Shown: positions 5,416 to 64,000 of the stretch, piece after piece
Numbering within the stretch: the first letter of the stretch is position 1
Layout of the letters: each line of letters starts with the position of its first letter
Origin: Protonemura montana
Taxonomy: Eukaryota > Arthropoda > Insecta > Plecoptera > Nemouridae
Assembly: GCA_947568835.1 (NCBI GenBank)
Contig: OX387608.1
Span: forward strand, 3,014,001-3,078,000
Direction: 5' to 3'
Length of the DNA stretch: 64,000 bases
Translations under genes and position numbers: made by a program
The notes under the pieces: model-generated
Seen by the model: the letters and a program-made list of their open reading frames with translations, nothing else
Told to the model about the DNA's origin: nothing
Database searches by the model: none

Positions 5416-5428
5416 TGATTACCTTTTT

Positions 5429-6396
5429 GAGCATCAGTGGGAAGTATATATGTTCAACTACAGAGCATCAGTGGGAAGTATAAATGTTCAACTACAGAGC
5501 ATCAGTGGGAAGTATAAATGTTCAACTACAGAGCATCAGTGGGAAGTATATATGTTCAACTACAGAGCATCAGTGGGAAGTATATATGTTCAACTACAGA
5601 GCATCAGTGGGAAGTATATATGTTCAACTACAGAGCATCAGTGGGAAGTATATATGTTCAACTACAGAGCATCAGTGGGAAGTATATATGTTCAACTACA
5701 GAGCATCAGTGGGAAGTATATATGTTCAACTACAGAGCATCAGTGGGAAGTATATATGTTCAACTACAGAGCATCAGTGGGAAGTATATATGTTCAACTA
5801 CAGAGCATCAGTGGGAAGTATATATGTTCAACTACATAGCATCAGTGGGAAGTATATATGTTCAACTACAGAGCATCAGTGGGAAGTATATATGTTCAAC
5901 TACAGAGCATCAGTGGGAAGTATATATGTTCAACTACAGAGCATCAGTGGGAAGTATATATGTTCAACTACAGAGCATCAGTGGGAAGTATATATGTTCA
6001 ACTACAGAGCATCAGTGGGAAGTATATATGTTCAACTACAGAGTATCAGTGGGAAGTATATATGTTCAACTACAGAGCATCAGTGGGAAGTATATATGTT
6101 CAACTACAGAGCATCAGTGGGAAGTATATATGTTCAACTACAGAGCATCAGTGGGAAGTATATATGTTCAACTACAGAACATCAGTGGGAAGTATATATG
6201 TTCAACTACAGAGCATCAGTGGGAAGTATATATGTTCAACTACAGAGCATCAGTGGGAAGTATATATGTTCAACTACAGAGCATCAGTGGGAAGTATATA
6301 TGTTCAACTACAGAGCATCAGTGGGAAGTATATATGTTCAACTACAGAGCATCAGTGGGAAGTATGTATGTTCAACTACAGAGCATCAGTGGGAAG
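5429..6396. repeat. 34-bp minisatellite, about 28.5 copies
   Basis: The unit GAGCATCAGTGGGAAGTATA + TATGTTCAACTACA repeats with only scattered substitutions. None of the three forward frames of the unit has a stop, and 34 is not a multiple of 3. Long overlapping plus-strand reading frames of up to about 320 codons therefore appear, each encoding the same 34-residue super-repeat. I take these as by-products of the array, not genes. It lies just past the 3' end of EIF3E. Confidence 0.97.
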
Positions 6397-8092
6397 GATG
6401 TGTCCCACTTTTAACAGTTCTGCTCAATAATACAAATATTATATAGATCCAAGTTTACGATAGTAAAGAAAGAAAACATCTTAAAAATATAATTCAACCA
6501 CTAAAGGGTTGAGTTGCAGCAGTAAAAAGCGCTGCAGTGCACTTGCGTGGAAAGCATAGCAAATACTGGACTGGGGAGTGGATTAGGTCTTCTTAGGTAT
6601 AAAATCACAAAACCAAACCACCAAATATGAACAAATCTTTAATTTAAAGAATTGAGCAACAATTAGTACAAATAGTATAATGATTATTTCTAGAATCTTC
6701 CAACAATTATTTTCTTATATAAATTGCACCGATTGCATAATTTCAACGCCCATTTGGAACCTATTCGAAATGGGTAATGTGAAAGTACACCATACGTAAG
6801 TAAGTGCAAGTTATTAATTAACATTGATATCCAACAAAAGTTTGCTACGGAATAGTTTTATGCACTTGAAAACTGTCCGACCTTTCACAAGTGACTTTGA
6901 GAACGTATCAAAGAAAAATATTGTAATATTCGCTAGTAGCTACACTAACCTGACTTGACAACAATTACCGTCATAGGAATTAAATTCCTGATCGTCAGGA
7001 AATGGCTCGGTGTGAGCTCAACATTAATTGAGATTATTATTAATACTTGTACAACACGAGTGGAACAAATGACCGAGACTACTTTTAATATCAGGAACCG
7101 TCAGTAGACAACAATGACTTAATTGTAACCATTTGGCAATCAACTCTTCGGCATAAAGGGAGAACCTTCGGTACATTTTTAACAAAATGATGCCACTAAA
7201 CTACTAAAACTGATTTTGATTCCCATATTTTGTAAAACATTTGCAACATAAAATAATATATTTTAACATTGCAAAATGACGATCATTCCTCAGTCTTCGA
7301 TCTTTGTACGTAAAAAGTCGGAACTAGATAAAGACTCATTTATAAATCAACCACAAGTTTAACAAATTTGTTAAGAGGTTATAAACCATAAAAGCACTTA
7401 GAAATCAACATGATTAAATAGGACAAAGAACACTTAACAATGGATCATTCCATTGGCTAAAAGCTACTGGACAGCATTTGGAATGCGTATATTTTTTCCT
7501 TTCTTAAAGATTTCACTATTAAAGTGATCAGCTTGAAATCACTTGATTAGTCAGAGCAGAAGTCCCTACTTTGGACCAAACCATTACAACATGGGACATC
7601 AGGACGATGGCGATGACGGCTTCACTCACACACAATAGGGAGGAAATGTACAAAAAAAGCAACACAAAGGCAAAAAACAGCTCGGCAAAGCAGCTGTAAA
7701 AAACACTGAAACAATTCACAGAAGCCTACCCCAGAGCCATGCGGTCATAAACAAAAGCTATGCTATGATAGTTTTTAGACTCATGTCTACTTGATGCAAA
7801 CTTAGCACTAGATTTAACAAAAACTATTTCAACTGGGTTTTGAATGCTAAGTGAAGAACAACTAAATTTCCCAAGGTTTCGTATCTTGTACCTGTTACTT
7901 TATTAAGGGTAAGAGCAGTACCCTTGATAAAGTAACAGGTACAAGTTACGAAACGTTGGGAAATTTAGTTGTTCTTCACTAAGCATTCGAAACCCAGTTG
8001 AAATAGTTTTTGTCATCAACTTGCTATGTTTCCTTCCATTTCAGTCAACCACGAAGTGCATGTTTCTGTCCGGTCCATGAAGTGCCTGATTA
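6397..8092. other. AT-rich spacer between convergent EIF3E and MOV10L1
   Basis: From 6397 to about 7755 I see no gene, RNA or recognised repeat. From about 7760 an FB-1 foldback fills most of the rest, and the last part is the MOV10L1 3' UTR. Confidence 0.6.
7760..8020. mobile_element. FB-1 foldback element
   Basis: Two arms run ACAAAAACTATTTCAACTGG…TTTCCCAA.GTTTCG…GTAACAGG… and back again in reverse complement around about 7915, ending AGTTGAAATAGTTTTTGT. The flank TTTTAGACTCATGTCTACTT also recurs with other copies. There is no ORF. Further copies lie at about 16690, 36445, 42845, 43650, 62130 and 63770, so it is a non-autonomous hairpin (MITE-like) family. This copy contains the first AATAAA downstream of the MOV10L1 stop (TTTATT at 7899–7904 on plus). 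Confidence 0.85.
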
Positions 8093-11000: not shown

Positions 11001-14000
11001 TAGCACGTGAGTGAAGTGCCCCTGCGGGAATCCCATGATGAGAAGGTGGCCGAGCGCGATACACGTGCCTACTGTGATCCGGTGCCGACCAAGCGTGGCA
11101 CGATTCGCTCCCTCGTTGTAGAGATCCAGCGGACGAGACTCAGACTCGTGCCCAGACGTCTCTCGGATGCAAGCCGTCGTGGAGTACGGCCGAAGTTTGT
11201 CCGGCAGCGAGCCTTCGTCCAGGATGTGGTGGCTGACCAGGCGGACTAAGTCGCCCGGTTTCAGCAGCCCACGTTCCTCACCATGTGCCTGAACACAAGA
11301 TTCAGTTAGCGACTCTCAACGATAGAATATCTGTGCAAGCTTTATCTGTGGCAGTCTTTGCCTCATAAGGATGGAATATCTGTGCAAGCTTTATCCGTGG
11401 TAGTCTTTGCCTCATAAGGATGGAATATCTGTGCAAGCTTTATCTGTGGCAGTCTTTGCCTCATAAGGATGGAATATCTGTGCAAGCTTTATCTGTGGTA
11501 GCTTGACTCTGAGATACCCAAGATATCAGCTCTTACCTTCGCGTCCAGCAGCCGCTCCGCAATGAGGTTCGCGGAGCTGTTTGAGGGCGTAGCCACCAGC
11601 AGCCGGCTGTCCGGCAACAGGTAGAAGATCTGCAGAATGGTCTCGACCAGGGTCATGGTCTTTCCCGTGCCCGGGGGACCGAAGATGATGTAAGGCAGGG
11701 GACGAGCCTCTCCACGCAGCACGTTACGCACCTTGTAAAGGAAAACACGTTCAGTCAAGCGTGCGATGGTTGCAGCCGTTGTAAGGAGAACCTTTGTATA
11801 GACACAAGCAAAGGGGGGTAGACGGGCTCGTTGTTATCGATTGATTTCTGGTGTTTTTAGACATGCTGTTTTACAACAGTCCATGAAGCACTGGTCTAAT
11901 GGCATCGGTGAATGAATGGCTGATGATGAGGATGATGATAAACCTAATCTAGCCTAGAAGGGAGGAGGGGAAACCCGGTGCCGGCACGTAGCCTACTCCT
12001 GTCGAAGACCAAGAGGACCACCGGTTTAAAGTCCCTTCTGAAGGACAGTACATCGCAAACAACAGGATTCCTTCACAAATCCATGCCGTCGAGAGGTTGA
12101 TAAGCAAGGCGAGTGAAGTTGCTGTACTAACTTATATCCTACCAACCTCTCTCCCAAACACAAAGGGGTGTAGATGGGATTGTTGTTATTGATTGAATTC
12201 TGGTGTTTAAAGATGCTCTATTTTACAACAAGCCATGTGGCACTGGTCTAATGGCGTTGGTGAATGATGATGAGGATGTGGATGATGATGAACCTAACCT
12301 AGCCTCTGGTTCGAAACAACAAAACCTTTACTCACCGCTTCTTTCTGGTGGAAATTGAGTGACTTGTTGACCCAGGCGATCTCCCTGCGCTTGGTCTCGT
12401 GCCTCACAGCCAAGTCATCTTCACCGACCACCTTCGTTGCGTTCTCCTCGAGCTGCACTTGCGGCGGCTGCAACGCCAGTCGGCTCGGGAACAAGATCTG
12501 CTCGCCTAAGTTTGCCATCGCGATCTCGACGGCCGAGTGTTGCTTGCGAATCATGCTGCGACTCGACTCGAAGCGCACGTTCACCACGTTGCCGTTGTAG
12601 CTCAGGTGGAACTCCGGACTGAACTTCAGGTAGACGTTGGTGCCGTGGAGCTCGTGAACGCAGCCCTCGAACACGAGGCGTGTGTCTTCCCACGGCCGAG
12701 TCACAAAGATCGTGTCGCCAACCAGAACCTGAACGCAAGCCTTGCTGTAGCTACCACAACTATCACAGATAACACAGGATTCAAGGAGTGGTGAACGCCA
12801 ATTTAATAGGCATCCAAGAGTTGCGAGCTTGCGAAGTATGCTAGTATGTCATATTTGATTAAAATTGCAAACGCTTGCAATGCGCAGGGTATTTTATAGG
12901 GGTGTGCGAAGCTTCGAACTTGACGAATAATTCGGCTCGAATCGAATCGAATTATTTAACTTCGATTGTCGATTAGTTGTTTTAAAATCATTCGAAAATA
13001 CTTCGGTTCGAAAGAAAATTATTCGCTGTTCGAATACTTCGAGGTCAACTTCGAAGTTGGTTCATGTAATGGCTACTAGGGAGCAGCACACGTCACAAAA
13101 TTGAATTCCAAACATGAAATTCAAAATGGCCTTTACTCTGGTTCTTGCTTATTTAAATCTTCTATTCAGGTACCTACTTATGACCCCTTCTGGCTTCTAA
13201 CATGGATATTGATATGAGTGAGGCAGAAACGGAAAGGCAAGGTGATAACAATAACATCAATGATAATAAGAGGAGTGTAATTTGGGACCACTACAAAAAG
13301 CTCATTTTTGTTATTTTATGATCATGCTGTTTAAAGTGTTTATCATGCTATGGTTATCTGTCACAACTCACCCTGATTTGATAAACATGAGATTTATGGG
13401 TAAACTTTTTAGTAGTACATAAAGGAAGGAGACTGGAGGTATAAGTATGTACCTTACGGAATGCTGTTTAACTGGAAGTTAAAACATGCTAAACTTGCTA
13501 ATAAATACCCAAGTGACAATAAAAATTCAGAATTCTGCGTTTTGAAATTGAAATGAAGTGATAAAAGTAGCAATTCGAAAATACTTCGATCAAATGAAAG
13601 ACTTCGACATTCGATTCGATATTCGACGTTTTTGTAAATAATTATTCGAAATTCGATTCGGTTTGAAACTGTTGACAATAATTCGATTCGATATTCGATT
13701 CGAACTCAAAAACTACTATTCGCACACCCCTAATATATATTTTATTATTATGAACAGTATAACCGTCTCAAAAATTGATGCCCAAACGGTAATTAGTGTT
13801 CCTAATAATAATAAAAGTATGCTAGTAGTTGGCATATGAGTCGTCCCTTGTGGGGATCTGTGTGCCCAGATAGCTCAGTTGGTAGACAACCAGGCCAGCA
13901 ATTGGGAGGTCCCGGGTTCGTATCCTCGTCAGTCGCACATCAGTATTGATGAAGTAGTCCAGAGCGTTCGTTAGCAAAAACAAGTTCCCATTCTTTTATT

Positions 14001-17000
14001 ATTATGAACACTATAACGGCTGCTCCCGTTTGGGCATACATTTTTGAGACGGTTATAGTGTTCATAATAATAAAATACCCCACGCATTGCAAGCGTTTGC
14101 AATTCAAATGAGATTTCATCTGAACAAGTTCCCGTTCTCTCCACCAGTCTGCTCACCGACGGTCTTTTCTCTGAGAGTCCAGTAACCTCGAGCGACAGAA
14201 ACTCGCCAGCGTTGCCAACCCGAGTCAGCGGGACGGTCTCCAACGAGTACTCCTCCATCTTGAGTCGCGAGTCAATCTCCTCTAGATACAGCATCGCGTG
14301 GAAACGCTCGCGGTAATTCCGGAATGTCAGGTCCGTGTAAAGGCTGGGCGCAATCTTCCTCAGCGCCTGTACAATCAAGTTCAAGTTAGCAATGCTGTAA
14401 AGTTTATTTATTTATTTAATTTTTAATTTAACTTTTCAATCCAAGCAAACAAAGCTTGTTTGTATGACTCAGGTCCAGCACTTGAAAATTATCACATATT
14501 ATACAAGATTAATTTACATTAAACATTCAAGAATTCATCTAAACTACAAAAATTGTGTTTCAACGGCAATGATTCGAGTTCTTTCTTGAAGTATTTTACA
14601 TTGGTTTTTATAACTGTATAGGACATGTGAATATCACCGGAAAAAAAATCATATAAAAAAAATCACTTGTTTTTTGTGTAACAAAAAGTCTGCTCAAATT
14701 GCAACCAAATTTTCAAAGCACATTTTCACGATCTCAACTTTGACCTAAGATTTTCAGAAAAATCGGTCTTATAGTAATTATTGTAACAATTAAAAATGTG
14801 CAAAAATTTTCAGATTTTGTATTTAATTTGTTTAGAGCTATGTACTTGTGCCAAGTGTCATAAAATGCTGACCTAGATGAAATCTTATTGAAATTGCAAA
14901 CGCTTGCAATGCGCGGGGTATTTTACTATTATGAACACTATAACCGTCTCAAAAATTGATGCCCAAACGGGGACTCGAACACCGATCTCCACCTGTCGCG
15001 GGTGTTGCTCTAACCAATTGAGCTACTTGGACACTTAAAAAAAGCTAGTCATTGAAGTACAAGTAGCTCAATTGGTTAGAGCAACACCTGCGACAGGTGG
15101 AGATCGGGGTTCGAGTCCCCGTTTGGGCATCAATTTTTGAGACGGTTAAAGCGTTGAGTGTAGGTTATAGGTAGAGAAACAACGTCAATTTTACAGTCTC
15201 TGCGTGAAAGATGGCTGCCAAATGACTACCTTACCGACAAAAATGCAGAGTACCGGAACATCACGTTAAGTGGAGCCACTGTCGTATGAAATTTAATTTC
15301 GATATTTCTCGTAGGTTACTCGCTTTTTAATATCGTTACGTGGATATCAACCGTTGAGGTAAACATTGATGAAGATTTTTTAAGCATGGAAAGGCTCAAA
15401 AGCGAGTTAACCTACGAGAAATATCGAAATTAAAATTCGTGGCTCCACTTAACGTGATGTTCCGGAACTCTGCATTTTTGTCGGTAAGGTAGTCATTTGG
15501 CGGCCATCTTCCACGCAGAGACTGTAAAATTGACGTTGTTTCTCTACCTAGAACCTACGCTCAACGGTTATAGTGTTGATAATAATAAAATGCTGAACAA
15601 AATAATATCGGGAGAGGAGGCCACCTCTTCAAAATTGAAAAGATGGGCTACAGCACCAACGTTGGCACAGGATCTTTCCTGGGAGCGTCAATTATGGAAT
15701 GGAACCAGCTGGACATGGACGTAGTAGAGCCATGGCCGAAGTCAGCTGAAGAGTTTAGAATTAGAATAAAAATTAATAATATTAAGAAAAATGTAAACTA
15801 GAATAGCTAGGTATAGAAGACATTATATTGTAACCAAGCCAGGGTGCTATAAACAATAAAACATTAAATACAATACAATACAATACCTCTTCTATCTCCA
15901 GAATGGTGCGCACGACTCCCTCGAGGTTGACAACGGCGTCCTTGTACCGTCGCGGCACGTCGTACGGATCGAGGCGCCGCGCGATGAACTTGGGCGGAGC
16001 CAAGCTCCGCACGCCGCGCACCACGCTCATGCCCTCGTTGGAGCGGAGCCGAGCGTTCGACCGCGCCGGACGTTCCGTGCTGCGGTCCTCGGAGATCAAG
16101 CGGACCTGGAGATGACGACTAGCTTCAAGATTGTGTTGGCAACATTATTTAATTAATTATTTGTGGTGTTTAACGACGCACTGTTTTGACAACTGGTCAT
16201 GCGGCACTGGTCTAATGGCGTTGGTGAATGAGAGGATGAAGATGAACACCTAGCTTAGAAAGGAACGAGAGGAAACCTGGTGCCGGCACGTAGCCTACTC
16301 CTGCCGAAGAGCACCAAGGGGACCACCGGCTTAACGTCCCTTCCGAAGGACGGTACAACGCGAACAACAGGATTCCTCCACAAATCCATGCTGCCGAGAG
16401 GTTGATAAGCAAGGCGAGTGAAGTTGCTGTACTAACTTTCATCCCACCAAACTCTCTCCCAAACAGAACTGGTCATGTGTATGATGGTCACCCATCCAAT
16501 ACCTGACCCAGCGCAGTGTTGCTTAACTTCGGTGAACTAACGAGAACTGGTGTTTCCAACACAACAAACCGTCCAGTGTTAAATCATTGGGTCTATAGGT
16601 AGAGTCAAAGTCCCAGCACAGATGCTATCATGAAAGTACTACTAGGATGCCCCTAATCAACTGGCAGAAGTTGCAAAATGTCAGGAGAATTAACAAAAAC
16701 TATTTCAACTGGGTTTTGAATGCTAAGTAATGAACAACTAAATTTCCCAACGTTTCGTAACATGTGCCTGTTACTTTATCAAGGGTAAGAGCAAGGGTAA
16801 GGTGCATAACGTAAAGACAACCTCGAAAAATTGGCGTTTTTTCTACACACATAATTGGTTAGTTAGTAAAAAAAAACCAATTAATTCTTGATTTTATTTT
16901 CGAAATTAAAAAATACGTAGGTTTTTTAATTTACCCTAATTCTTTTATTTAGATGCATGTAGAATGCTTTAACTAGGTAATTGTTATAATTTTATGTGGT

Positions 17001-20000
17001 TTTTTTGTTATCGGAAAATTGTCAGGACTGCTCTTACCCTTGATGAAGTAACTAGTACATGTTACGAAACGTTGGGAAATTTAGTTGTTCTTCGCTTGGC
17101 ATTCAAAACCCATTCCAAATAGTTTTTGTTAAAACTAGCGCTAAGTTTACATAAAGTAGACATGAGTCTAAAAACAATCATGTCAGGAGAATTTGTTCTT
17201 TTACTTAACATTAAAAGCCCCAGCTTAAAGTTTTTTTTTTTTTTTAAGATTTCATTCGGTACTTTGTAACAGTCACAGGAGAAGTCCAGTATCGAGCCGT
17301 GAACGCAGTGAATTACGTTGAATTACTCACAGATTCCATGTCGCAGACGTCCACCTGGAAGTGGCAGCCGACCTTGAACTCGCGGAACGTGAAGACGAAG
17401 AGCTCGCGCGAGATGCCGATGAACTTTCCGAGGCAGGAGAACGTGAAGTTGAGCGATTGTCCGGGCGGCACCGCCACCTTCTTGTTAGCGTTGCCGTACG
17501 TGAGAGAGACCTGCAAACAAGCACCGAGCATTCAGTCGCAAAGTCTCATACAGCGATCACCAAGCAGCTTTTTTACTTTTACGAACACTATTTACCTCTC
17601 AAAAATCAGTGCCCAACCTCATCAAATACTCTAAAATCATCTCAAAAAGCTAGTGTCAAAGAAGCTCAATTGGTTAGAGCAACACCTGCGACAGGTGGAG
17701 ATCGGGGTTCGTTTCACTGTTTGGGCATCAATTTTCAAGAGGTTATTTGTGTGCATAATAATAAAATACCCTGGGAATTGCAAGCGTTTGCAATTTAAAT
17801 CAGATTATTTTGCTTCAAATTGATTCGATCCGAGACAAATGGCAGCTATTTCTTTGAACTAAGCTACAAATGAAATGGACAAAATTACAAACAAACTGGA
17901 AGAGCGGGACTGAACAAAGTAGAAAAAATCAAGACAAACAAACAAAACTAATCCCCCCTTGAGGGGATCCCTTATCCCACCCCCGCGAAAGCTGGAATAT
18001 GTGTGTACGGATAGCTCAGTTGGTAGAGCACCCGACCGGAAATTGGGAGGTCCCGGGTTCGTATTCCGGTTTGGTTGCACATTTTTCCAGTCTAGCTTCC
18101 TTTCCATCATTCGCTTGCGGGTTTAAGCTCCCTAGTGGAAATGCCAGAAAACCAAAAAACACTGAAACAAAACTAATATAATCTTGAGCCTGGCCAGATT
18201 CAAATCAAGGTTTAGTATAACAATCAAACAACCGATATGAAATCTGATTTAAACTGCAAACGCTTGCAATGCGCGGCGTATTATATGAATACCTGCGAGC
18301 CGCGCTGAGTTAAATAGAAGTCAGCAAACATCAATATGTGCTCCTGGCTGCCGTTGTTGGTCAGGGTGACCGAGATCTGCTTCCCCGTCTGCCCCTTGAC
18401 CACGGTACCGAACTCAAACTCATATCCGCTGAGCGAGATGCCGCGCTTCTTGGTGCAGAGCTCTGTGATCTCGGTGCTGGCTGCGCTTGTGTTGTAACGG
18501 ACCGGGCGTCCAGACACGACCGGAGTCACCAGCAGAGCACGCCACGTGCAAACACCTGTTGGCGGCCGGGGAGTTGTTTTATTATCAACACTATAACCGT
18601 CTCAAAAATTGATGCCCAAATGGTGACATTTGGGATATTTGAACATTTGGACAAAAGTGACTGTTCATTTTTTGATGAATTATAAAATGCTTTAGGTGAA
18701 ATCTTATTTAAATTTGAAACGCTTGCAATGCGCGGGGTATTTCATTATTATGAACATCAAAACTGTCTCAAAAATTGATGCCCAAATGGGGACATTTGGG
18801 ACATTTGAACAAAATGGATTGTTCATTTTTTGATGAATTATAAAATACTTAAGATGAAATCTCATTTAAATTCCAAACGCTTGCAATGCGCGGGGTATTC
18901 CATTATTATGAACATTATAACCATCTCGAAAATTGATGCCCAAACGGGGACTCGAACCCCGATCTCCACCTGTCGCGGGTGTTGCTCTGAACCATTGAGC
19001 TACTTGGACACTGGCTTTTTGAGACGATTTTAGTGTATTTGATGAGAATGACGGATCTCCAAGGAATAGAACCACGAGGCTGTGAATACTCACAGTCACT
19101 CTGATTCTAGTGACGCTATATCACGTCACAACCTGTCAAACTCTAGTAACTCCAATTTGACGTTGGATGCGTTGTTGTATTAGGATGAAATCTTATTTAA
19201 ATTGCGAACGCTTGCATAAATGTATTATATTATTAGGAACACTGATAACCAAATGCACTAAAATTTTCTCAAAAATGACATGACCAAGTAGCTTAATTGG
19301 TTAGAGCAACACCTGCGAAATGGTAAAGATCGGGGTTCCCTTCAGGGCACCAATATTTCAGAGGTTATAAGTGTTAAAAATAATAAAAAATAGGGAAAAC
19401 GTATTTACTATCATTATTTACTGTAGCAGGGCCTCTTAAAAAGTAGTAAAACTGTTAAAAGTGTGATGATAATTTTCTATTCACAGTCCATCAAGGAAGT
19501 TTTTGCACGTTTCAAAAATGAGGAACCTCGATATCAAAAATCCACGTCTTTTTCAGAAAGCGCTTACATTTTTTTTTTAAATTGTCTGCGAAAGGAAACA
19601 CAACCAAGAAAGAGAAAATAATGAAGAGCTGTTTCTTATAACGCCGCACTTCACCCGGAGCTTTGTATTATTTTTTATTTGTGGTGTTTAACGACGCACA
19701 GTTTTGACAACCGGCCATGCCGCACTGGTCTAATGGCGGCGGTGAATGAGTGGATCATGATGAGGATCATGATGAGGATGATGATGAGGATGATGATGAG
19801 GATGATGATGAACCTAACCTCAAAGGGAGGAGGGGAAACCCGGTGCCGGCACGTAGCCTACTCCTGTCTAAGACCAAGGGGACTACCGGCTGAACGTCCC
19901 TTCCAAAGGACGGTACAACGCGAACAACAGGATTACTCCACAAATCCATGATGTCGAGAGGTTGATAAGCAAGGCGAGTGAAGTTGTTGAACTGACTTTC

Positions 20001-49900: not shown

Positions 49901-52900
49901 CTTTTCGTAATTGCGTTCCTGCTTTTCGTAATTGCGTTCCGGCCTTTCGTAATTACGTTCCGGTTTGTCACCAATGCGTTCCGGTTTGCCACCGTTGCGT
50001 TCTGGTTTGTCGAACGTGTGTGACTGTGTGCTGTAGCTTTGGTTACTTGCTGCCTTGACGAACGGGGGCGGCGGCTTGTCGACGAAAGTGCTGAACTTGT
50101 CGTTGATCTTCTGGCCCGACTCTGCGTCGGTGACGTGCACGCTGTACACGCCGTTGCGTTCAGTGCCGAACTTCATCTGCGACCAGAGCAAGGAGAGGTT
50201 AAGTTTCGTGTGAAAACCAGGGGCTGTGTCTCGATCAGTCAGTCGGCGGTGCTACCATGGTGCTACATAATACGACCGGTGGTATTATATAACCCCGACC
50301 TAGAGCGGTCATTTGGTGGTGCTACCATGGTGCTAAATAATACGACCGGTGATATTATATAACCCCGACCTAGAGCGGCCATTTGGCAGTGCTACCATGG
50401 TGCTACATAATACGACTGGTGGTATTATATAACCCCGACCTAGAGCGGTCATTTGGCGGTGCTACCATGGTGCTACATAATACGACCGGTGGTATTATAT
50501 AACCCCGACCTAGAGCGGCCATTTGGCAGTGCTACCATGGTGCTACATAATACGACTGGTGGTATTATATAACCCCGACCTAGAGCGGTCATTTGGCGGT
50601 GCTACCATGGTGCTACATAATACGACCGGTGGTATTATATAACCCCGACCTAGAGCGGTCATTTGGCGGTGCTACCATGGTGCTAGATAATACGACCGGT
50701 GGTATTATATAACCCCGACCTAGAGCGGCCATTTGGCAGTGCTACCATGGTGCTACATAATACGACTGGTGGTATTATATAACCCCGACCTAGAGCGGTC
50801 ATTTGGCGGTGCTACCATGGTGCTACATAATACGACCGGTGGTATTATATAACCCCGACCTAGAGCGGTCATTTGGCGGTGCCACCATGGTGCTACATAA
50901 TACGACCGGTGGTATTATATAACCCCGACCTAGAGCAGTCATTTGGCGGTGCTACCATGGTGCTACATAATACGACCGGTGGTATTATATAACCCCAACC
51001 TAGAGCAGTCATTTGGCGGTGCTACCATGGTGCTACATAATACGACCGGTGGTATTATATAACCCCAACCTAGAGAGGTCATTTGGCGGTGCTACCATGG
51101 TGCTACATAATACGACCGGTGGTATTATATAACCTCGACCTAGAGCGGTCATTTGGTGGTGCTACCATGGTGCTACATAATACGACCGGTGGTATTATAT
51201 TACCCCGACCTAGAGCGGCCATTTGCAGTGCTACCATGGTGCTACATAATACGACTGGTGGTATTATATAACCCCGACCTAGAGCGGTCATTTGGCGGTG
51301 CTACCATGGAATAATTGTTTTAGAGTATTTATTATTGACTCGGCAACACGTGAGAATAAAGCCATGTAAAAAGATCTTCTCCAATAACAAATTTATTTAA
51401 CCATATGAACCCCATTTAACTATAATATTTTGATCACTAATATAAGATGCAAGCTTGATGTCTCCCAATAAGTGATTGATTATCCAGCGGACCAAACTTG
51501 CAACAATATGACATCAAGACGAGGGCCAGCATCGACGTCAAACTGTCAGTGGAGCAAACAAGCTGGCAACAAGCGGTAACATAGAATATGCCCAGCACAA
51601 TTTAAAAAGATTTGAAATTGGATGTGCATTAGATTATTTGACACTAACCAATCACTCTCACAAAATACTGTAATATGTATGAACAATTTCCTCGAATAGA
51701 TACAAATTTCTGAGAGGCTCACTGGTAAGATGTCCTTCACCTGACAATCAATGGCAATTTTACAAAATAAATTCATCAGGCTTGAGCAGTCAAAAAAAAC
51801 CAAAGCAATCCCTTCTTTGCTGATTCAACTTACCTCGAGTGGCTTCCCGTCCATCATCTCGGTGAACTGTGAAATTTCCTCCGCGGTCCACTCTGCCCCC
51901 TTGGGCAACGAGCCGCTGAGGCAGCATCGTACGGCTTGCGCGGGGAGGCGTACGAAGGCGGGAGCGATCTCTCGCACGTCTGCCAGGGGCACGTCATCCA
52001 CGTTACCGTAGTCAACGAACATGACACGAGCGGTGCTCGAGTCCGCAGACTGAACAGTCGCGCGGTACCACTCTCCGTCGTCTGCAAAACGCGCCACGCA
52101 GGACGCTCCCCGCGAAGGGCGGGGCAAGGGGTGGCCGCCCTTCCCGTACAGCAACGCGATGTCGGCCATCAGGTCCACGAGTGCCGTGTCGGGCGTTATC
52201 TGCGGGACGAGGCAGTTCGTTGGGATAAGAAAAGTGACCCACAGCCTTCTCTGCCATGCAGGTCGACCCACAGTAGACATAGCAACAAACATAGCACACA
52301 AGGATCTTAAAACTTGGTGATCATATGGGACTGCACACAATTGACATGGCAATAAGAACAAGCATAGCGCACAAGGATCTTAAAACTTGGTGATCATATG
52401 GGACTGCACACAATTGACATAGCAATAAGCACAAGCAAAGCACACAAGGATCTTAAAACTTGGTTATCATATGGGACTGCCCACAATTGACATAGCAATA
52501 AGCACAAGCAGAGCACACAAGGATCTTAAAACTTGGTTATCATATGGGACTGCACACAATTGACACAAAATGCAAGTGCAATGTGATGCGCTTCTTCTGC
52601 CCAACGAATCACAGAGCATTATTTTAACAAACATGGGGGACGATCTTTTCTGACTGACGAAGCAGAACGTCGTCGAGCGTTTTGTATTCACTATCTGTAC
52701 TCGAACAGTTGGTCAAAACCATTGCTACCTCCCCGGAATCATGGAATCAGTCAAAGAGTAAATTAAAATATAGAATTTAGTGCCAATCTTACAGTCAACA
52801 GGTGATAAACTTCAAGAATGGGCTTCATTAGGCTCAACAAAAGTGACAGCCGAGATCATTAAATTTGCAGTTGCTCGAAGTTTATTGTACTCAGTAGAGA

Positions 52901-55900: not shown

Positions 55901-58135
55901 ATTACTTCAAATTATAGAGGAAGATCGGATGATTCTAGTATTAAGACGGTTCAAACTTGTATTCCTGAACAACACACATGCAGATATGCCTCGAGATCTA
56001 AGCAACTAACCTTCTTTCTTCCCCGCTGCCTGCCCCTTGCGAAAGCTCCCAACCTTTTCGAGCTCGGCACAGACACTGAGCAACGGCGTAGCCGACAAGT
56101 CGTGCAGATTAACCACCGGCACGCCCCTGGACGTGTGCTTGACCACATAGGCTATCAAAGTCTTATCGACGACGAGCTCCGAGAACCGGTCGACGATACT
56201 TTCGTCCCCTTCGTTCTCTTCGTAGCCTTCGAGGCAGCACTCGATGGCCTGCGCCTTGAGCCGCGAGGTGAGTTCAGGCGTGACAAGCCGAAGCGCTGAT
56301 AGGTCCACGGTTTCGCAGTTGCCGTAGTCGACGTATTGCACACGTGCAGAGTTGACCCCAACGACCGCCTCTACCTGTGCCCGGTACCACTGCTGGTCGG
56401 TGACATATCGGGCACAGCAAACGAAACCTTCGCACAAGTCCGTCTTCGTCACGGCAAACCCGGCACCTGCCGACTGGCAGTGCTTAGCCAGGTCAGTCAT
56501 CAGCTCCAACAAGAACTGCGCATTGTCTTCCAGCACCACAAAGAACTTGCGCATGCTCTCGATGTGTTGAACGGTCACCGACTTTGTCATGCCCACTTGC
56601 GGAGTCGGCACCCTCTGCAAGACGCTGCTGATCTGAGAGTCTATTTGCAATTTCACGATGTTGAGCACACTCTTTCCCTGGTCGAACAGGATGCCGCACT
56701 GCTTGAGGTGGTGGCCTTCAGCCGCCGTGGTATACAAAGTCAGGGACTTGCCGATGACGTAGGTGGAAAACATGTCCTTCATCTCTTTGGTCAACTCGAA
56801 CGTGTTGAGTCCGCCGTGGGTGATGCGGACGCACATAGGCTTGGGGTTCGCAACGTAGTGCGTCGGAATGGCGAATATGTCGTCGAACGCAACCTCCTCG
56901 GTGGTCCCAAAGTCGACAAAGTACAGTTTGCACGTGTCGGCAACGTGCACAACGACGGCACGGAGCAGACTGAGATCGCGGCTGCGTCCGAGGCAAATGG
57001 TGCCCGTCATCGGGGGAGCACTGAGCGGCACGGCCCTCTGGGCGTTGATGTCGGCCAACATCTTTGCGAGGACTTCCTCCATGTCCTGCAAGAACACGAT
57101 GAAGGCCTGCGGGCCGTCCTCAACGTAGACCACTCGCACGGAATACGGCGTGTTTAGTGCCAGGCGTCGTACTTCAAAGCCGGCGACCTCGAGGCCTGAC
57201 GGAGAAGTGGTCGCAACGTGCGGCGGTGTTAAGGCCACGGCTGGCTGCGTAAACTGCGCAGCCGGCGGCGAAAACGGTGGGCAGTACTTGTCTCGACCGG
57301 GGTAGACCAGTCGCGACGAGGGTGGCTTTACGTGCGGCTGGCTTGTCGTTGGGTGATGGGCCGTAGACGATTGGAATTGCGGGGAAAAATGCTCTAACAC
57401 GTTATCTTCGACGGCCTGGGCGGTCGATTGGGTCACCATCATCTGCGCAATAGGCAACGGTGGGGGAATATCCGGATTGAACCGAGGCCAAAGCTGCATC
57501 TGTGGCAGCGGCACTTTGTTCAAGATGTTGTGTAGAATGCCTCCCTGGGTGTCTAGTAATATGTTGACTGCAATACGTCGTGATACCAGGAACTCGGCCA
57601 AATCCATGCCGTTCTGCAGGTGCACACGGATGAAGTGGTGGCATCCTACTTTGCCTACGCTTAAAAACTTGAGTTCCATGTAACATGAAGTATCTTTCAC
57701 AAATTTTAGATTCTCCTTGCTCCAGTTACCTGTGAGAGGCGCCACATTTGCCAAATAAAAATGTGTGGCTTGATCTGCATATGTAGCTAGAGGACTTAAC
57801 ATCCCATCAAGAATCCGTATGTTTATCACACTGATGACCTCTGAATTGCCATAATCGGCGAATTGCACGCCAACCTGGTCACTGGCCAGATTCTCAAGGC
57901 TTGTTATTCGGGCCCGGTAATATGTGCCATCGAGGTACTTGGCACAGCACAACTGTCCTATGGCAAGTTGTGTTGGGACAGGGGTGCCGACTCCCTGGTT
58001 AAACTTTGGTGTAAATTGTCCTATTAGCCTTTCTATTGTGGTAGGGGCTGACCTGTCTGTCTGCCCCCAGATTTTTAGCAAGGGTCCTTCTTCCCCCACG
58101 TGGGTAATAAATACCTCCGATAAAATTCCTTCCAT
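31924..58135 (-). CDS. Giant multi-Tudor protein with nine Tudor domains (Tudor/TDRD6/TDRD15-like), complete, 18 exons
   Basis: Exons: 58135–56011, 55444–55384, 54971–54918, 53125–52945, 52199–51834, 50176–49679, 48336–48107, 47247–47039, 44817–44552, 42029–41862, 41330–41164, 40576–40351, 39290–39129, 38494–38228, 38053–37824, 35927–35665, 35027–34717, 33276–31924. All are GT–AG and the phases close at 2378 aa. Nine extended Tudor units show the W/YYRA…DYGN signature: about residues 71, 390, 584, 850, 1130, 1350, 1525, 1735 and 1915. Units 2 (DFGT) and 6 (DYGD) lack the Asn that contacts dimethyl-arginine. Exon 6 adds a seven-residue PERNYE-type repeat. The C-terminal 430 residues are acidic and repetitive with no domain. 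Such proteins scaffold Piwi proteins in germ granules. Domain number and lack of MYND or RING favour Tudor/TDRD6/TDRD15 over TDRD1 or RNF17; the exact orthologue is not settled. Confidence 0.95.
34262..34690 (+). mobile_element. hAT transposase C-terminal remnant
   Basis: A plus frame contains NLKYAPVTSCDVERSFSSYK followed by IILSDGRHRLKSLNI. This is the hAT dimerisation region ('…TSxxxERxFS…RxxLxxxxI'), preceded by a related helical stretch. Only the last 130 or so codons are recognisable. It lies in the last intron of the Tudor gene, antisense to it. Terminal repeats were not found. The rest of this intron (33277–34261) is AT-rich and unassigned. Confidence 0.75.
36005..36345 (-). mobile_element. 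SINE-A head and core in tail-to-head order
   Basis: A reverse head (36010–36160) is immediately followed by a reverse tail and core (36165–36325). Read on minus, the order is core, tail, then head of a second unit. The B box of the core is intact (GGTTCGAGTCC on minus). Confidence 0.85.
36445..36568. mobile_element. FB-1 copy, left part (split by a hAT-type insertion)
   Basis: FB-1 sequence from ATGGTTTTTAGACTCATGTC to CATTCAAAACCCATTAC is interrupted here and resumes at 37777 (CCCATTACAAATAGTTTTT). The family order is restored if the intervening 1208 bp are removed. Confidence 0.85.
36569..37776. mobile_element. 1208-bp non-autonomous hAT-type transposon with perfect 8-bp target duplication
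   Basis: Termini are TAGAGCCACGATTATATGG and, at the far end, the inverse of TAGAGCCAAGATTTTATGG (2 mismatches in about 19). CCCATTAC flanks both sides exactly (36561–36568 and 37777–37784). TIRs starting TAGAG plus an 8-bp duplication are hallmarks of hAT. The inside has no transposase; it shows small CATAACACCGAAATCA repeats near 36715. It lies in a Tudor-gene intron. Confidence 0.93.
38100..38190 (-). mobile_element. SINE-A tail fragment
   Basis: GATGAAATCTTATTTAAATT, the TTGCAAACGCTTGCAA palindrome and TTATTATGAACACTACAACG are present, followed by a short facing piece. The core is deleted. Confidence 0.8.
38550..39105 (-). mobile_element. Dispersed repeat R1, copy 2
   Basis: This is the reverse complement of the element at 1788–2720, collinear over about 530 bp. 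It holds one diverged 55-bp unit (CCACCAGGTTGTGGCAAGGT) where copy 1 has eight. At the CRE position it reads TGACTACA on minus, not TGACGTCA. Confidence 0.85.
39345..39550 (-). mobile_element. Old SINE-B copy, mostly head
   Basis: GCGGTCACCCATCCAGTTCA … GTTGCTCGGTGCTATGGAGA with TCTCATGAG aligns with the 5S-like head. The body is almost fully lost. It is the most diverged copy in the window. Confidence 0.6.
39600..40240 (-). mobile_element. LINE reverse-transcriptase C-terminal remnant and 3' UTR
   Basis: Minus frame reads VYYAYFHSVMKYRLIFWGNL, KRAIRIVARVGG, PYFIKYKVLPLFSQYIYDCA and LDHNTRHALDIFV. This is the thumb/C-terminal pattern of CR1/Jockey-like non-LTR elements ('Yya.f.S…YG…WG…QKra…'). 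Stops interrupt it, so it is dead. A 3' end rich in AATAAAT lies towards 39640. It is in the same orientation as the host Tudor gene. Confidence 0.75.
40700..40870. mobile_element. Diverged relative of the large-hairpin element
   Basis: TTAAGTGGAGTCACTGTCGT, GTAGGTTACTCGCTTTTGAG and the right end CCTAGAACCTGCACCCTCAA match inner and outer parts of 15153–15565. Most of the left arm is deleted. Confidence 0.65.
42270..44045. repeat. Tandem triplication of a 750–820-bp composite unit
   Basis: A 170-bp block beginning CACCTCGGTGGGACAGGAAC occurs at 42311, 43060 and 43883 (spacings 749 and 823). Between the blocks lie a reverse SINE-A core, a plus SINE-A core and an FB-1 fragment in the same order. 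The third unit is cut off after the 170-bp block. Each block carries a perfect 10-bp hairpin GGGACAGGAA/TTCCTGTCCC. Small minus-strand ORFs in the blocks (62–88 codons) are conserved only because the DNA is duplicated. Confidence 0.9.
44056..44551. other. Tudor-gene intron sequence, nothing seen
   Basis: This AT-rich intron, between the truncated third composite unit and exon 9, holds no recognised element. Confidence 0.5.
44885..45285 (+). mobile_element. SINE-A: reverse tail, then full plus copy
   Basis: The reverse tail is at 44890–44975. A plus tail remnant follows, then a full plus copy (head 45030–45160, core 45175–45243, tail to 45280). B box GGTTCGTGTCC has one change. Confidence 0.8.
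45383..46765. repeat. Second tandem triplication, 536- and 722-bp spacing
   Basis: A block starting GTAAGCCACCGCCCAGGAGA recurs at 45383, 45919 and 46641. The first two continue for about 400 bp of matching sequence (CTTTAAAAAGTTTCTCTGC, GGTAGGCCGAAGCAATC); the third is cut after about 125 bp. It lies in the intron between Tudor-gene exons 8 and 9, within 1.3 kb of the other triplication. No gene is seen. Confidence 0.9.
46770..47012. repeat. 86-bp minisatellite, about 2.8 copies
   Basis: GTTACGAATCACCGCTCTAG recurs at 46813, 46899 and 46985. The parts CCGCTCTAGGTCGGGGT and TGGTGCTATGGTGGTGCTAG correspond, inverted, to the 70-bp array at 50.2–51.3 kb. It ends 27 bp from the donor of Tudor-gene exon 8. 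Confidence 0.9.
47248..48106. other. Tudor-gene intron, nothing seen
   Basis: No member of the window's repeat families and no coding similarity are recognised in this intron. Confidence 0.5.
48640..48840 (-). mobile_element. Old SINE-A copy
   Basis: Diverged reverse core (CCCCGAACTTCACCTGTCGC … GAGCTACCTGGACAT) and head (GAATGACGGATCTCCAAGGA) are recognisable. Both Pol III boxes are damaged. Confidence 0.7.
49081..49217. repeat. Dispersed fourth copy of the 170-bp block
   Basis: CACCTCGGTGGGACAGGAAC through GCTGGCCAGCAACACAAAGA + CAGGGC matches the blocks at 42.3–44.0 kb, including the GGGACAGGAA hairpin. It stands alone, so the block itself is probably a mobile repeat. Confidence 0.85.
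49275..49665. repeat. 49-bp minisatellite, about 7.5 copies (locus 2)
   Basis: The unit is the same as at 11325–11505, in the same orientation. It ends about 12 bp from the donor of Tudor-gene exon 6 (GT at 49677–49678), inside the intron. One unit has an internal deletion (about 49380). Confidence 0.93.
50235..51310. repeat. 70-bp minisatellite, about 15 copies
   Basis: The unit GCGGTGCTACCATGGTGCTA + CATAATACGACCGGTGGTAT + TATATAACCCCGACCTAGAG + CGGTCATTTG has exact 70-bp spacing. GCAGT/GCGGT and CCGG/CTGG variants recur together in a higher-order pattern. It starts about 60 bp upstream (in transcript sense) of the acceptor of Tudor-gene exon 6. Confidence 0.95.
52270..52570. repeat. 73-bp minisatellite, about 4 copies
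   Basis: ACACAAGGATCTTAAAACTT recurs every 73 bp with GATCATATGGGACTGCACAC. The array starts about 70 bp from the acceptor of Tudor-gene exon 5. Confidence 0.9.
53175..53640 (-). mobile_element. SINE-B copy with triplicated head segment
   Basis: The body starts at GGTCTAATGGCATCGGTGAA just 50 bp from Tudor-gene exon 4. A 91-bp segment repeats at 53429, 53520 and 53611, the same segment and spacing as in the 19.7-kb copy. A short internal duplication (GACTCCTGTCGAAGAGCACC) is private to this copy. The 5S-like end is truncated. Confidence 0.88.
53761..54660. other. CpG-depleted intron segment
   Basis: Reading base by base I find one CpG in 900 bp (at about 54014), although C and G are both common. 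There is no coding similarity and no known repeat. The flanking introns contain CpGs at ordinary spacing. Confidence 0.8.
55445..56010. other. Tudor-gene intron 1, nothing seen
   Basis: No repeat family member or similarity is recognised. GT (56010–56009) and AG borders are consensus. Confidence 0.5.
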
Positions 58136-59992
58136 ATTTTAGAACTCTACTTTGCAGTAAAAATCAACACAATACTACACAGATGATTTTCCAACTTGCA
58201 CACGAATGCCTCCCGGCTTGACGAAAATTTCCTTCTCACATTCGCGGCGTCGCGTCCTAAACCACTGCACAACTAACAATGGCGGCCTACATCTGCGGTC
58301 GTGTGCTGCGAACACCGGCGACGGGATCAGACAGGATCTTTTTCGATGGCGCGTGCACAGCTTCGGCTTAGATTCGGCTATGTCCGGTTGCTATCGTTTC
58401 TTCCGGGTTGCTCTCGGGAGAGTCACGTGATTTTGACAGTTTTCTGGAATCTGATTCAAAATATAAAAAAACCATTAGGTAGGAACAGTTTAGGATCGCT
58501 AAAGAGTCCTAAGAAAGTTCTAATAGAGTTCTAAAAACTGAAATATGAAGGATACGTATATAAAGTTTACTATACTCTCTCTAGATAGTTATTTGTGTAA
58601 CCTGTTAATTGTTATCTTCACTTTGTGTTTGGTCTTTGCTGGTCTGCGGTCCTCTTGTATGCTTCGTGTCACGTTGTTAAAGGGGACTTTCATGACACAT
58701 GCATATTTTTTTATTTTTACTTTACTATTTAATTCGGTCTTTTTTTCCGGTTGTGCAAATATTATAGCCTCTAGATACAGGTACGAGATTAGTAAGTGCA
58801 TTATTTAGTCTGGTTTTTATTACTTTCACATATTCTGGTTGTGGTCTAACTACACCTGCTGGCAATTTTTTCCACTGCTCTACTACCATAACAAACTAGG
58901 GCTTCACTAGCACAACTTGATGCGTTGCTCTCGTTGTCTCTCCATTTCAGTTGGCAGCAGTTGGTCTTTGCCAGCCGATGGCCCTCTAGGTATCTCACCC
59001 AGGATTCTCTGGTTTCTCCTGGCTACCTTTTTCACCAGTCTTTCCCCAGTGAAAATTGTTTGTCAAATCCTTGTCATTAAGTTCATAGTGAAAATAATTA
59101 CAGATACTCTCCCCTTTTTTACAGTTGACAGTTGACTTTTTTATCAGTTGACTTTTTGAGTTGAGTAGCTTCATTTTGTTCTTCTGGGCCCATATCTCAA
59201 CGTTTCTTTTATTTGGTCTGCTTGGTTTTTTTCTAAGTCGGCCCCTTCTTACTTCCTACGTAGTTAATAACAACAGAGGCCACGAAACACCGCCCTGAAG
59301 AACCTTAGACAAAACATTGATGCCATTCGATGCCATTGATGCCACTACTCGCACTCTTTGGGTCATAGCTATTTTATCGTTAATTTATTTTCATTAAATA
59401 ATCCTGATTTTATATTTTATAGGTTGCGCCAGAATGACATCAGATTGTTTTAGTTACGGAAATACATTCATCAGCATAAGTATTGTTACTACATTAGTAT
59501 CATAGTTTGTAGGTATGTTCCTACCACAGTAGTATTGCCACTATACCATCAGAATTATTACTATTATTATTATCATTGATATTACTATTTACTTTTATGT
59601 ACTATCCTGACGATCCCAAACAGGATTCATGGCTTGTATGTTTTTTTTTATTTAAGCCAATAAAGGAAATCAATCAATAAATCAAAGAAATGCATTAGAA
59701 GATAGACCACAATCTCTTGAAATTTTTTAATACAATATCTCAATCACCACACTCTTCACATCATTATGAGTAAATTGTATATTGATCGTACCAATACATA
59801 AATATATAACAAGTAAATTTTATTTAAAAGATATACAGATCCTAAACTTTCCTCCATTCAATATAATTACAAGAAAATACCACTTTGATGTTTGCATGAA
59901 GAATTATAATTTAGCTCGTCAGCACTTTCAGGAACAAAATCAAGACTAAAACTCCATCTAAATTTTCCAATACACATCGAAGTTACGTGTAA
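58136..59992. other. Spacer between Tudor-gene 5' end and RNF146 3' end
   Basis: The first 270 bp are CpG-richer and include ATGGCGGC (58279–58286, YY1-like), so they probably hold the Tudor-gene promoter. From 58440 on the DNA is AT-rich. A TTTATT at 59818–59823 supplies the AATAAA for the long RNF146 isoform on minus. Around 59640–59690 a CAATCAATAAAT-type tail hints at an old LINE end. No gene is seen. Confidence 0.5.
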
Positions 59993-62896
59993 TCACAGGA
60001 CGTCTTCTTCGCTGGCATCAGAACGTTCATCATCGCTCGCGGTTCTCAAGCCCAGCGAGCGAATCTGTTCGACAACCTGGTGAATGGAGTCTCTACGATC
60101 GGGTGTCGTGTCTCCGCTAGTTCTGCCCCCAGCTGGAGTTTGAGGCGTGTTCGACGGCGCCACGGGCGTGGTATCGCCCCCGGTGCCGCCGGGACTCTTC
60201 GGGGGCAACGGTTCCTCGTCGCCCAATCGCAGTCCGGCCACGCCCTTCTTCGGGATCGTGGCTAGGTCTCGCTTGATGCGTCGGCGCCGCGACATCTCCG
60301 TGCGTCGCACTTGCAGCATCGCGTTGAAGTCCGCGACGTAGAGGAAGCCGGCGATGAGAAGCTCGCAGACGCGGTCGCCTTTCTTGTACGCTGATTCGAG
60401 CTCGCGGCTCGTTCTCTCGTCATATTGCCACCAGCCTGCGGGGTCGGAAGGGACTTGCACTTCAGAACAGCTGAATATATAGTGCTACTCATGGTCTAAT
60501 TAGATCATGCAATAACAGGGCGTTTGTATTATGACTCACCCATTTTTAACATTGTTTTTAGAGTATTTGATGAGTATGACAAAAAAAAAACCTGTAACAG
60601 CCGTCTATCTTTCGAGCTAAAATGAGATTCGAGGAAAAGTGACAAACGATTCTGTCCATTTGACCGTTGAATTAGCATCCAATTCAAGAGTTGCTAGAAA
60701 CTCGTCCATAAGAATCGTCTAAAACTCTTCCCCCTTCAGGGGATCCTGTATAACACCCCGCGAAAGCTGGAATATGTGTGCCCGGAAAGCTTAGTTGGTA
60801 GAGCATCTGACTGACTATTGCAAGGTTCCACTTTTATATCCCAATGCAATAGAGAATTTTTCCAGTCTAGCTTCATTTCAATAAAAAAAAATGTTTACTA
60901 TACTTTTGTGCTGATTGGCTGCTGGCTTATTATGGAAGGTGCTGATATTTTTAGTCATAAGATAAGATTTCTTTGTGGCTGAATGGATTTCAGTTATTTA
61001 CACAACTTCAACCCACAGATAAATGCCACATAGATAAAAGATAAACTTCAAGATAAAAACCTTTTATTTAAAGACAAAATCTCCAAGATGCATGCATGCA
61101 AAGAGTAAGTTAGTTCTCATCAACTTAACCTAGCCAATACTTGGCATTAACCTATTGCTGTCCAATATTGATGGACTATTTAGTGAGTCCAGATCGACAT
61201 CGAGTCTTTCAACTCAATATTGTGACTGGAGTGACAACATCCAGTTCTATCTTATTATACAGAAGTATCTTTATGTCTAAGACTCTACCTCATGGTTGTG
61301 ATTTGAAGGGTGGTGGCATACAAAGGAAGAAGGAAAAATAATTTCTGTTTCAATGATAAAAAAAAGTGTGTGAACTCTCAAACTGAAATGTATTTGTAAA
61401 AATCATCTCAGAGGGTTTTTATTTATTTACAATAGTACACCAAAAAAAAAAATCACCGATATTTATGATTGAGATGGCAAATTATTTGATAGAGATCAAT
61501 TGATAAGTTGAAATATCGATCGTAGGTTAGGAATATTTTAGCCACCAATGCAAAAATTAAATAACATTTGTTTTTAGAACTGAATTTGAATTTCATCTCA
61601 ACCCTGCGATGCCCTTCTTTTGGGCGGAGACAATGTCCCGCTTGATTCTACGCTTCTTTGTGATATCGTGTTTTTTGTACTGCACTTTTTCTTTGAAATC
61701 TATGACGTAGAGACTGCCGCATATCATGAGCTCGCATTTGCTTTTATTGAGTTTGGAAACTTCTTCGATATCAGCGCTTGTGCGTTCCTCGTATTGCCAC
61801 CAACCTAAAGTATCAGAACGATAGTGTTTCGTTAGAACGGTTCCTACCTAGTTACTATCATCCCATCGATCTAGAAGATACATTGCCTGTGACTCTGACA
61901 CAGCAAGCTGTCTGACAATTTATCTTATCTTGGAATTTAGACTGGAGATTTATGTGTAACTACTGTATTATTTTCACCATCTGTTCCTTCACAAAGTGAA
62001 TAGACATTAAACGCATAACTTTTCATTGAAAACTTTGAGACAAGTGTGAAACAATCAATAATACTTGCACTATGCACTAAATTTAATATGACCTCCTAAT
62101 CTGCTACTGATACCAAATTTAAGAACATATGATGGTTTTTAGACTCATGTCTACTTGATTTATCCTTAGCACAAGTTTTTAGAAAAACTATTTGAACTGG
62201 GTTTTGAATGTAAAGGGCTACTAAATTACTAAATTTAGAAAATTTAGTAGCCCTTTACTTAGCATTCAAAACCCAGTTCAAATAGTTTTTCTAACAAAAA
62301 ATTTAAGAACATCACTAACCCCAGGTAAAAAATGGTAGGATGATTGGTTTTTAAATAATAATTTGAAATAACTGATGAGTTTTCTGCCTAAAATTCTTGG
62401 CATGGTATAGATTACAAGCCTAAAGACTTTGAAAATTATTTAAAACCGCATTCATGACAAAAAAATGCCTTCAGAACCAAAGAAAACTAAAAATAATTAT
62501 GAAAATTAAAAACTATAAGCAATAATTTGAATGCAATATCAGAGCAACCCTCTTACCATTGCGTCCTTCGTAAAACCATTGGTAGCCATCTTCGAGAGAC
62601 GCAGTTTCCTTCACAGTTGCCGACTGCTCCACTAAATGAGGCTTGTCTAGATAGTCTGACGGTATTTCTTGTCGGCACATGGCACACTTCTTGCTCTGGT
62701 TTGCTACACCTTTTAGACAGAGGAAGCAAAAGATATGACCACACGGAAGCTGGGCAGGATGTACGCATGGCTGTAAGCAAACAGCACACTCCAAGACCGA
62801 TGCATTTAGATCCGATTCCGAAGACGAATCGTCCAAGGTGATCTCTTCAATTGGTACAGCCTCAGCCATAGTAGTTTTATCGGAAATTCTTAACAC
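59993..62896 (-). CDS. RNF146: RNF146/Iduna-type PAR-dependent E3 ubiquitin ligase (long isoform)
   Basis: Exon 1 (62896–62557) encodes a C3HC4 RING (CAVCLQPC…CGHIFCFLC…CAMCRQEIP) and the start of the WWE domain ([11 protein letters not shown]). The distal last exon (60435–59993) joins in frame to give [10 protein letters not shown]…, [15 protein letters not shown] and [10 protein letters not shown], then a Ser/Pro/Gly-rich tail ending DASEEDVL; 260 aa in all. RNF146 recognises poly-ADP-ribosylated proteins (axin, tankyrase) through the WWE domain and ubiquitinates them. Residues known to bind iso-ADP-ribose (Tyr in FLYV, Gln, Arg in the basic run, Lys in PKKG) appear conserved. The start could also be the ATG at 62869. 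An alternative last exon lies in the intron (61804–61593). Confidence 0.95.
60720..60885 (+). mobile_element. SINE-C copy, diverged
   Basis: Flanks CCCCTTCAGGGGATCC, GCGAAAGCTGGAATATGTG and TTTTTCCAGTCTAGCTTCAT match the 17.95-kb copy. The core A box is changed (AAGCTTAGTTGG) and B box is lost. It lies in the RNF146 intron. Confidence 0.75.
61593..61804 (-). CDS. RNF146: RNF146 alternative terminal exon with its own WWE C-terminal half
   Basis: After a TTTAG acceptor the exon joins exon 1 in the same phase as the distal exon: [19 protein letters not shown]…, [24 protein letters not shown], then TGA. A transcript ending here would give 183 aa: RING plus a full WWE domain but no tail. An AATAAA (about 61425, minus) follows. 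The two exons match along their whole WWE part (WWQY.ERTS, LYV.DF, IKRD, KKG.AGLR) but differ at about half the positions, so the duplication is old and the reading frame has been kept. The alternative is that it is no longer used. Confidence 0.8.
62125..62305. mobile_element. FB-1 foldback, compact copy
   Basis: ATGATGGTTTTTAGACTCAT… GAAAAACTATTTGAACTGGG folds onto AACCCAGTTCAAATAGTTTTT around a short centre (about 62235). It lies in the RNF146 intron. Confidence 0.85.
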
Positions 62897-63764
62897 AGCG
62901 CGTTTAAGTTTACTGGTAAGAGCTGCGACATAGCATGGTCAAATAGTCTTTGGTCAAATATATTCCAGATTCCATGCTCCAATGTTGTGCCCATTCATGC
63001 AGTTAGATGGCCATTATTTGATAGTTCCATGTTTGACACTTTCTTGATTACGAGTGTAATTATTGTGTTTCAATCAAGCAACGCATTACACCGCAAGATT
63101 TCGACTCCAGTTTCTTAAGAAGGATTATAAACACAACGGTAAACGAGCGATAACTTTCCACGACAGCCTTCACACTTGACAGTGACAGCTACAATAGGAT
63201 ATTTCTGTGCAGTGCGGCCAATGTATAACCTCCTAATCTGTTAATTACCAGTTCGGACCATGTGCGTCTGATTAGAACAACTACCGCCAAATTAGTAAAT
63301 TTGTTTTGTTTTTCTTTTCTTCTGGCAAGTCTGTAAATCCCATCAATTTATCCCTTAGTGTGGGAATACTTCTATTTATACCTTATTGCTGTCCAATGTA
63401 TCGAAACCTTCTATTCCAACGCTTCTGTTTTCTTTTTCATCAAACATTCCCTTCACAAATCTTTCCTGAGCTATTCAGATCAGATATTGTCTTAGCTTGT
63501 TTATCTTGTCATTTAATTCTGATGCAGAACTTCTTTTATTAAAGTTGTATATTTTCCTAAGTTTTTTTTTTAAATACTTGACTTTCTTGTCATAAAATGA
63601 CGGGTCTGAGTTTGAGAATTTTTGTTGGCACATGTTGTTCCCTTTTTTCCATTTCCATGGAAAAACTTTCCAGTTATTTTTTTCTACCAGAATGTTGAAC
63701 TTTAAGTTCTATATACACTTGATGATTCTTACTTCTTTTTAATCTTCAAACACAACTATAATTA
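62897..63764. other. Upstream of RNF146, nothing firm
   Basis: This must contain the RNF146 5' UTR and promoter but shows no clear core motif. The plus strand is T-rich from 63300 on and no ORF is recognisable. Confidence 0.4.
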
Positions 63765-63965
63765 GCATTTCACAAAAACTATTTGAACTGGGGTTTGAAT
63801 GCTAAGTAAAGAACAACTAAATTTCTTAATGTTTTGTAACTTGTACCTCTTACTTTTTCAAGGGTAAGAGTAGTCCTCTTACCCTTAAGAGCAGAACCTG
63901 TTACTTCCTGTTACTTCAGTAAGACTGCTCTTACCTTTGAAAAAGTAACAGGTACCTACAATACT
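63765..63965. mobile_element. FB-1 foldback at window end
   Basis: CACAAAAACTATTTGAACTG … GAACAACTAAATTTC … GTAACTTGTACC is followed by the start of the returning arm (CTCTTACCTTTGAAAAAGTA, ACAGGTAC). The second arm is incomplete. Confidence 0.75.
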
Positions 63966-64000
63966 ATGTAATCATAATTTTTCATTAACATCGTTTTATA

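Follow-up and report, generated by a model that had tools for sequence, protein, structure and literature searches.

Whether a single RNF146 gene can end in either of two last exons, each completing the same WWE domain, and whether both would give a ligase able to read its ligand, are the questions raised by a locus on the minus strand of the 64-kb window (the whole stretch of DNA analysed here). RNF146 is an enzyme that reads poly(ADP-ribose) (PAR) and marks proteins for destruction, and in this way couples the polymer to protein destruction.

The coding part of exon 1 (62557..62869, minus strand) was found to comprise 104 codons and one further base, and to carry the start ATG, the RING and the first part of the WWE domain. 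It ends with the residues YQWFYEGRN plus one base, followed by the donor; the 5' splice site, ATG/GTAAGA in phase 1 (62551..62559, minus strand), lies at the border GGACGCAATG/GTAAGA with the donor GT at 62556. The proximal last exon (61593..61804, minus strand) is preceded by an acceptor AG at 61805..61806 of the same strand, the border reading TACTTTAG/GTTGGTGG, and a CTAAC motif at 61835-61831, upstream of this acceptor, is presumably branch-point-like as judged by eye. This exon encodes the WWE remainder, (G)WWQYEERTS...KKGIAGLR, with a stop directly after it, and gives a tail-less form of 174 aa. The distal last exon (59993..60435, minus strand) follows an acceptor AG at 60436..60437 (minus strand; border CCCCGCAG/GCTGGTGG) and encodes the WWE remainder, (G)WWQYDERTS...KKGVAGLRL, then a 77-residue C-terminal tail and a stop, giving a form of 251 aa. 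In both exons the split codon becomes Gly, Trp-Trp comes next and the phase is identical, so that these are adjacent homologous last exons in one phase, as expected of tandem-duplicated alternative last exons. The distal exon is GC-rich, with 0.63 in its WWE part and 0.62 in its tail, against 0.48 for exon 1 and 0.44 for the proximal exon.

Splice-site sequence and translation thus agree with a previous sequence-only reading of this DNA, which had described two tandem last exons completing the WWE domain in the same phase after exon 1. The outer borders that it gave, 59993 and 61804, are exact by the translation and the sequence of both exons, and the stop codon directly behind KKGIAGLR bears out a short form that stops right after the domain. 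Its prediction of a tail-less short product besides a longer one held, but not the lengths of 183 and 260 aa, as the computed values of 174 and 251 are each 9 fewer.

The assignment to RNF146 is supported at several levels. RING and WWE were above the Pfam cut-off in both spliced forms, the WWE scoring 62.2 bits in the proximal and 68.6 bits in the distal form (cut-off 21.1), while the exon parts by themselves scored 50.1 and 54.0 bits, respectively. The Cys/His spacing of the RING agrees with a RING finger, and in both forms the RING is followed by a single WWE. When solved structures were searched, the top four matches for each form were RNF146 chains; the RNF146 structure 4qpl was matched over RING and WWE with E = 1.6e-55 for the proximal form and 9e-65 for the distal form, and the match spans the RING to the final residues of the WWE region in both.

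The proximal exon might be an open frame that resembles the distal one by chance, and this was ruled out by a neutral simulation, by tblastn and by a scan of frames behind AG sites. Of the 207 bases in the 69 common codons, 119 are identical between the two exons, as are 34 of the 69 encoded residues; by codon position the identities are 41/69, 48/69 and 30/69, and the third position is the less conserved (p = 0.005). The Nei-Gojobori estimates were dN 0.47 and dS about 2.0, the latter near saturation; pS was above pN in all 5000 bootstraps, with a 95% range of 0.35-0.70 for pN/pS. In the simulation the present-day distal exon, which is not the ancestor, was taken as the start and mutated to the observed base identity. 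At least 34 of the 69 residues were kept in none of 3000 runs under uniform mutation and in none of 3000 under window composition (maxima 32 and 31 residues), and the runs free of stops numbered 139 and 100 of 3000, respectively. With the distal form as query, tblastn found the proximal exon in the window with E = 2.9e-20, and outside the RNF146 gene no match in the 64 kb was better than E = 2.2, so that no second RING exon was seen in the window. On the minus strand from 62550 to 59400, 186 AG sites are followed by an in-phase stop; 14 of these open a phase-1 frame of at least 69 codons, 12 lying within the distal exon or a short way before it and two at the start of the proximal exon or shortly before it. 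The 69 proximal codons contain no stop and no frameshift, and the AG is intact. These tests show past coding constraint on the proximal exon; they speak to the past and not to present-day use.

The two copies have changed at unequal rates. When the 69 positions were compared with 4qpl, 29 were alike in all three sequences, 20 were changed in the proximal exon only and four in the distal exon only, five were common to both exons and different from 4qpl, and 11 were all different. The ratio of 20 proximal to four distal changes, polarised with 4qpl, has p = 0.001; the distal exon is equal to 4qpl at 49/69 residues and the proximal exon at 33/69, including the four residues that the proximal exon has in common with 4qpl where the distal exon differs. 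On this comparison the proximal copy is faster-evolving, yet constrained.

The contacts of RNF146 with iso-ADP-ribose are given in the available text of PMC10877565 and PMC11269756 as Tyr107, Arg110, Trp114, Gln153, Arg163 and Lys175. With the numbering fitted to 4qpl so that residue letters agree, all six are identical in both forms. Tyr107 and Arg110 are the same by construction because they are encoded in the common exon 1, and Trp114, Gln153, Arg163 and Lys175, in the duplicated part, are kept in the proximal and the distal copy. Tyr144, which we take to be a further ligand-site residue, is also the same in both copies. With 35 of 69 residues differing, the chance of keeping the four contacts is 0.054, and that of keeping five with Tyr144 is 0.025; taken alone, the kept contacts are weak support. 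A difference between the copies in published ligand contacts is not supported, nor, at these contacts, are the two different PAR-binding surfaces proposed by the sequence-only reading, as all four contacts encoded by the duplicated exon are identical. The proximal exon has Lys at positions 155 and 161, where the distal exon and 4qpl both have Arg, so some change in binding could still exist, and affinity may be altered through residues other than the published contacts.

When 187 AG sites were ranked with an acceptor matrix, the distal acceptor came 1st and the proximal acceptor 9th. Each last exon has a stop codon and an AATAAA: the candidate poly(A) signal after the proximal exon, AATAAATAAA (overlapping hexamers; 61418..61427, minus strand), begins 166 nt past the proximal stop, and the candidate AATAAA after the distal exon (59819..59824, minus strand) begins 169 nt past the distal stop. 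The hexamer alone is not above chance, since 17% of 4000 first-order Markov sequences modelled on the region had an AATAAA within 175 nt, and on the minus strand from 62600 to 59000 there are ten AATAAA/ATTAAA sites, including an AATAAA within the proximal coding sequence (61748). Such hexamers by themselves prove little as to poly(A) sites; the proximal exon does carry a candidate for the poly(A) signal of its own that had been attributed to it, with the chance expectation of 17% within 175 nt to be set against it. We consider it unlikely that the proximal exon serves as an internal one: a scan for donors with at least 6/9 consensus matches found none before its stop, a weaker donor being possible, and splicing onward to the distal exon would encode half of the WWE twice.

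The clearest difference between the two forms is the tail. According to the accessible part of PMC11852910, PAR binding switches the ligase activity of RNF146 on, and the C-terminal region of the human protein binds tankyrase via several motifs; five putative ones are given for it. Neither the 174-aa nor the 251-aa form contains Rxx[ACGP]xG, Rx4G or Rx5G, the patterns that PMC9688111 applies to orthologs, as far as its text was available, and in this respect the gene is unlike human RNF146. The number, configuration and position of these motifs vary across RNF146 orthologs (PMC9688111, same text), so that tankyrase motifs were not taken as a hallmark of RNF146 outside the human protein. That the short form has lost known tankyrase motifs is not supported, since these patterns find none in the long form either, and it cannot be said that tankyrase tethering goes with the tail.

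We consider it likely that the locus derives from an old tandem duplication of the RNF146 last exon, with a common exon 1 that joins in frame to either copy and a presumed choice between terminal exons. The pre-mRNA would be processed by this choice: splicing to the proximal exon and cleavage at a poly(A) site of its own would yield the 174-aa tail-less ligase, and skipping of the proximal exon the 251-aa form, competition between proximal terminal-exon use and skipping to the distal exon being the likely mode. Both products are predicted to be E3 ligases that are gated by PAR and recognise iso-ADP-ribose. The expected differences between them are 35/69 residues of the WWE part, the rate of evolution and, most of all, the C-terminal tail with the 3' UTR, which could give them other partners, stability or expression rather than another class of ligand.

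Some doubt attaches to the function of the proximal exon because its acceptor is the weaker one (9th against 1st of 187), its evolution is faster, its hexamer is at the chance level of 17% and an AATAAA lies inside its coding sequence. The faster evolution (20 against four changes polarised with 4qpl) and the weaker acceptor would also be expected of a relic, that is, an exon long constrained, lately out of use and still unbroken. We regard this as unlikely, given 69 codons with neither stop nor frameshift, an intact AG, four exon-encoded PAR contacts that were kept and a Pfam score near that of the distal copy. The poly(A) hexamers behind and inside the proximal coding sequence would equally suit an exon with a mainly regulatory role, in which premature polyadenylation sets the level of full-length RNF146 and the short protein is minor; a purely regulatory terminal exon, however, has no need for a WWE-coding frame under purifying selection, and this role appears decidedly improbable as the main one.

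A remnant of a whole-gene tandem duplication, with the RING exon of the second copy lost and the distal exon shared or orphaned, would account for the strong GC contrast between the WWE parts of the last exons (0.44 proximal against 0.63 distal) and for an exon 1 (0.48) near the proximal exon in composition. Such an origin is very improbable in our estimation, as the 64-kb window holds no second RING-like stretch better than E = 2.2 and it is the distal exon that is nearer to 4qpl (49/69 against 33/69), and therefore unlikely to be orphaned.

Between the last exons, at 60730-60900, lies a SINE-like repeat with a stretch that is tRNA-like by eye and gave no ARAGORN call; pieces related to it by blastn are at 17954-18030 (87% over 77 bases), 18081-18104 and 13853-13886. 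Intron 1 contains a near-perfect palindrome at 62176-62297, with two 40-nt arms that are 93% complementary and related pieces at several sites of the window, which we infer to be MITE-like. ARAGORN called 11 tRNAs in the window (3409-45245), 10 of the 11 being Ser(cga) or Leu(caa), and these are probably tRNA-derived repeats rather than genes; Rfam gave no matches in 56000-64000. At 5147-6443 overlapping open frames lie on a highly repetitive, minisatellite-like stretch. An open frame adjoining the gene on the minus strand (56009-58138) has three Tudor-domain stretches. Elsewhere in the window, 51828-52379 encodes another Tudor domain, 13974-14411 has MOV-10-like domains and 11492-11833 an AAA domain; these are possibly piRNA-pathway neighbours.

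With respect to known systems, the protein is like RNF146/Iduna (4qpl) in the order and spacing of RING and WWE and in its identical published PAR contacts, and unlike it in having two alternative last exons, one of which gives a tail-less form. The arrangement had been put forward as one not known in described RNF146 genes, and among the papers listed in literature searches naming this gene, covered by titles and the starts of abstracts and with most subscription papers outside, none describes duplicated last exons in it. Pattern matches numbered 5 and 26 in two scans of a collection of viral contigs and 57 in one of genome contigs, none of them confirmed; as these collections consist of viral, bacterial and archaeal sequences, an animal relative was not expected there.

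The type of duplication has precedents. Among human tandem-duplicated exon substitutions, 77 of 236 events affect the C terminus, and in that human set conservation between the duplicated copies is higher at residues that bind small ligands (PMC9741552, in the portion available). The human C-terminal cases are alike in that homologous tandem exons are exchanged, and unlike in that, in the present gene, use of one copy takes away the tail as well; RNF146 is not mentioned in the same portion of that paper. Drosophila pip, with its terminal exons, and PGRP-LC, with its 3' variable regions, likewise have tandem homologous units under mutually exclusive choice, according to the available text of PMC9013439, where competing RNA pairings are referred to as shown for PGRP-LC in a cited study and pip is described as far less studied and is discussed with regard to its 3' UTRs. 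We regard the gene described here as an RNF146 variant built by a well-known type of exon duplication.

We propose only tentatively that one gene encodes two PAR-gated ligases through the choice of last exon, a tailed RNF146 and a tail-less, faster-evolving form serving other PAR-marked targets or tissues. If this is true, the tail-less form would be independent of any binding partners of the tail. A naturally occurring ligase that lacks the tail and has an intact PAR reader would allow PAR reading to be told apart from what the tail does, with no need for an engineered mutant, and, if both forms are kept, the pathway that joins PAR to protein destruction would be tunable by terminal-exon choice in some animals.
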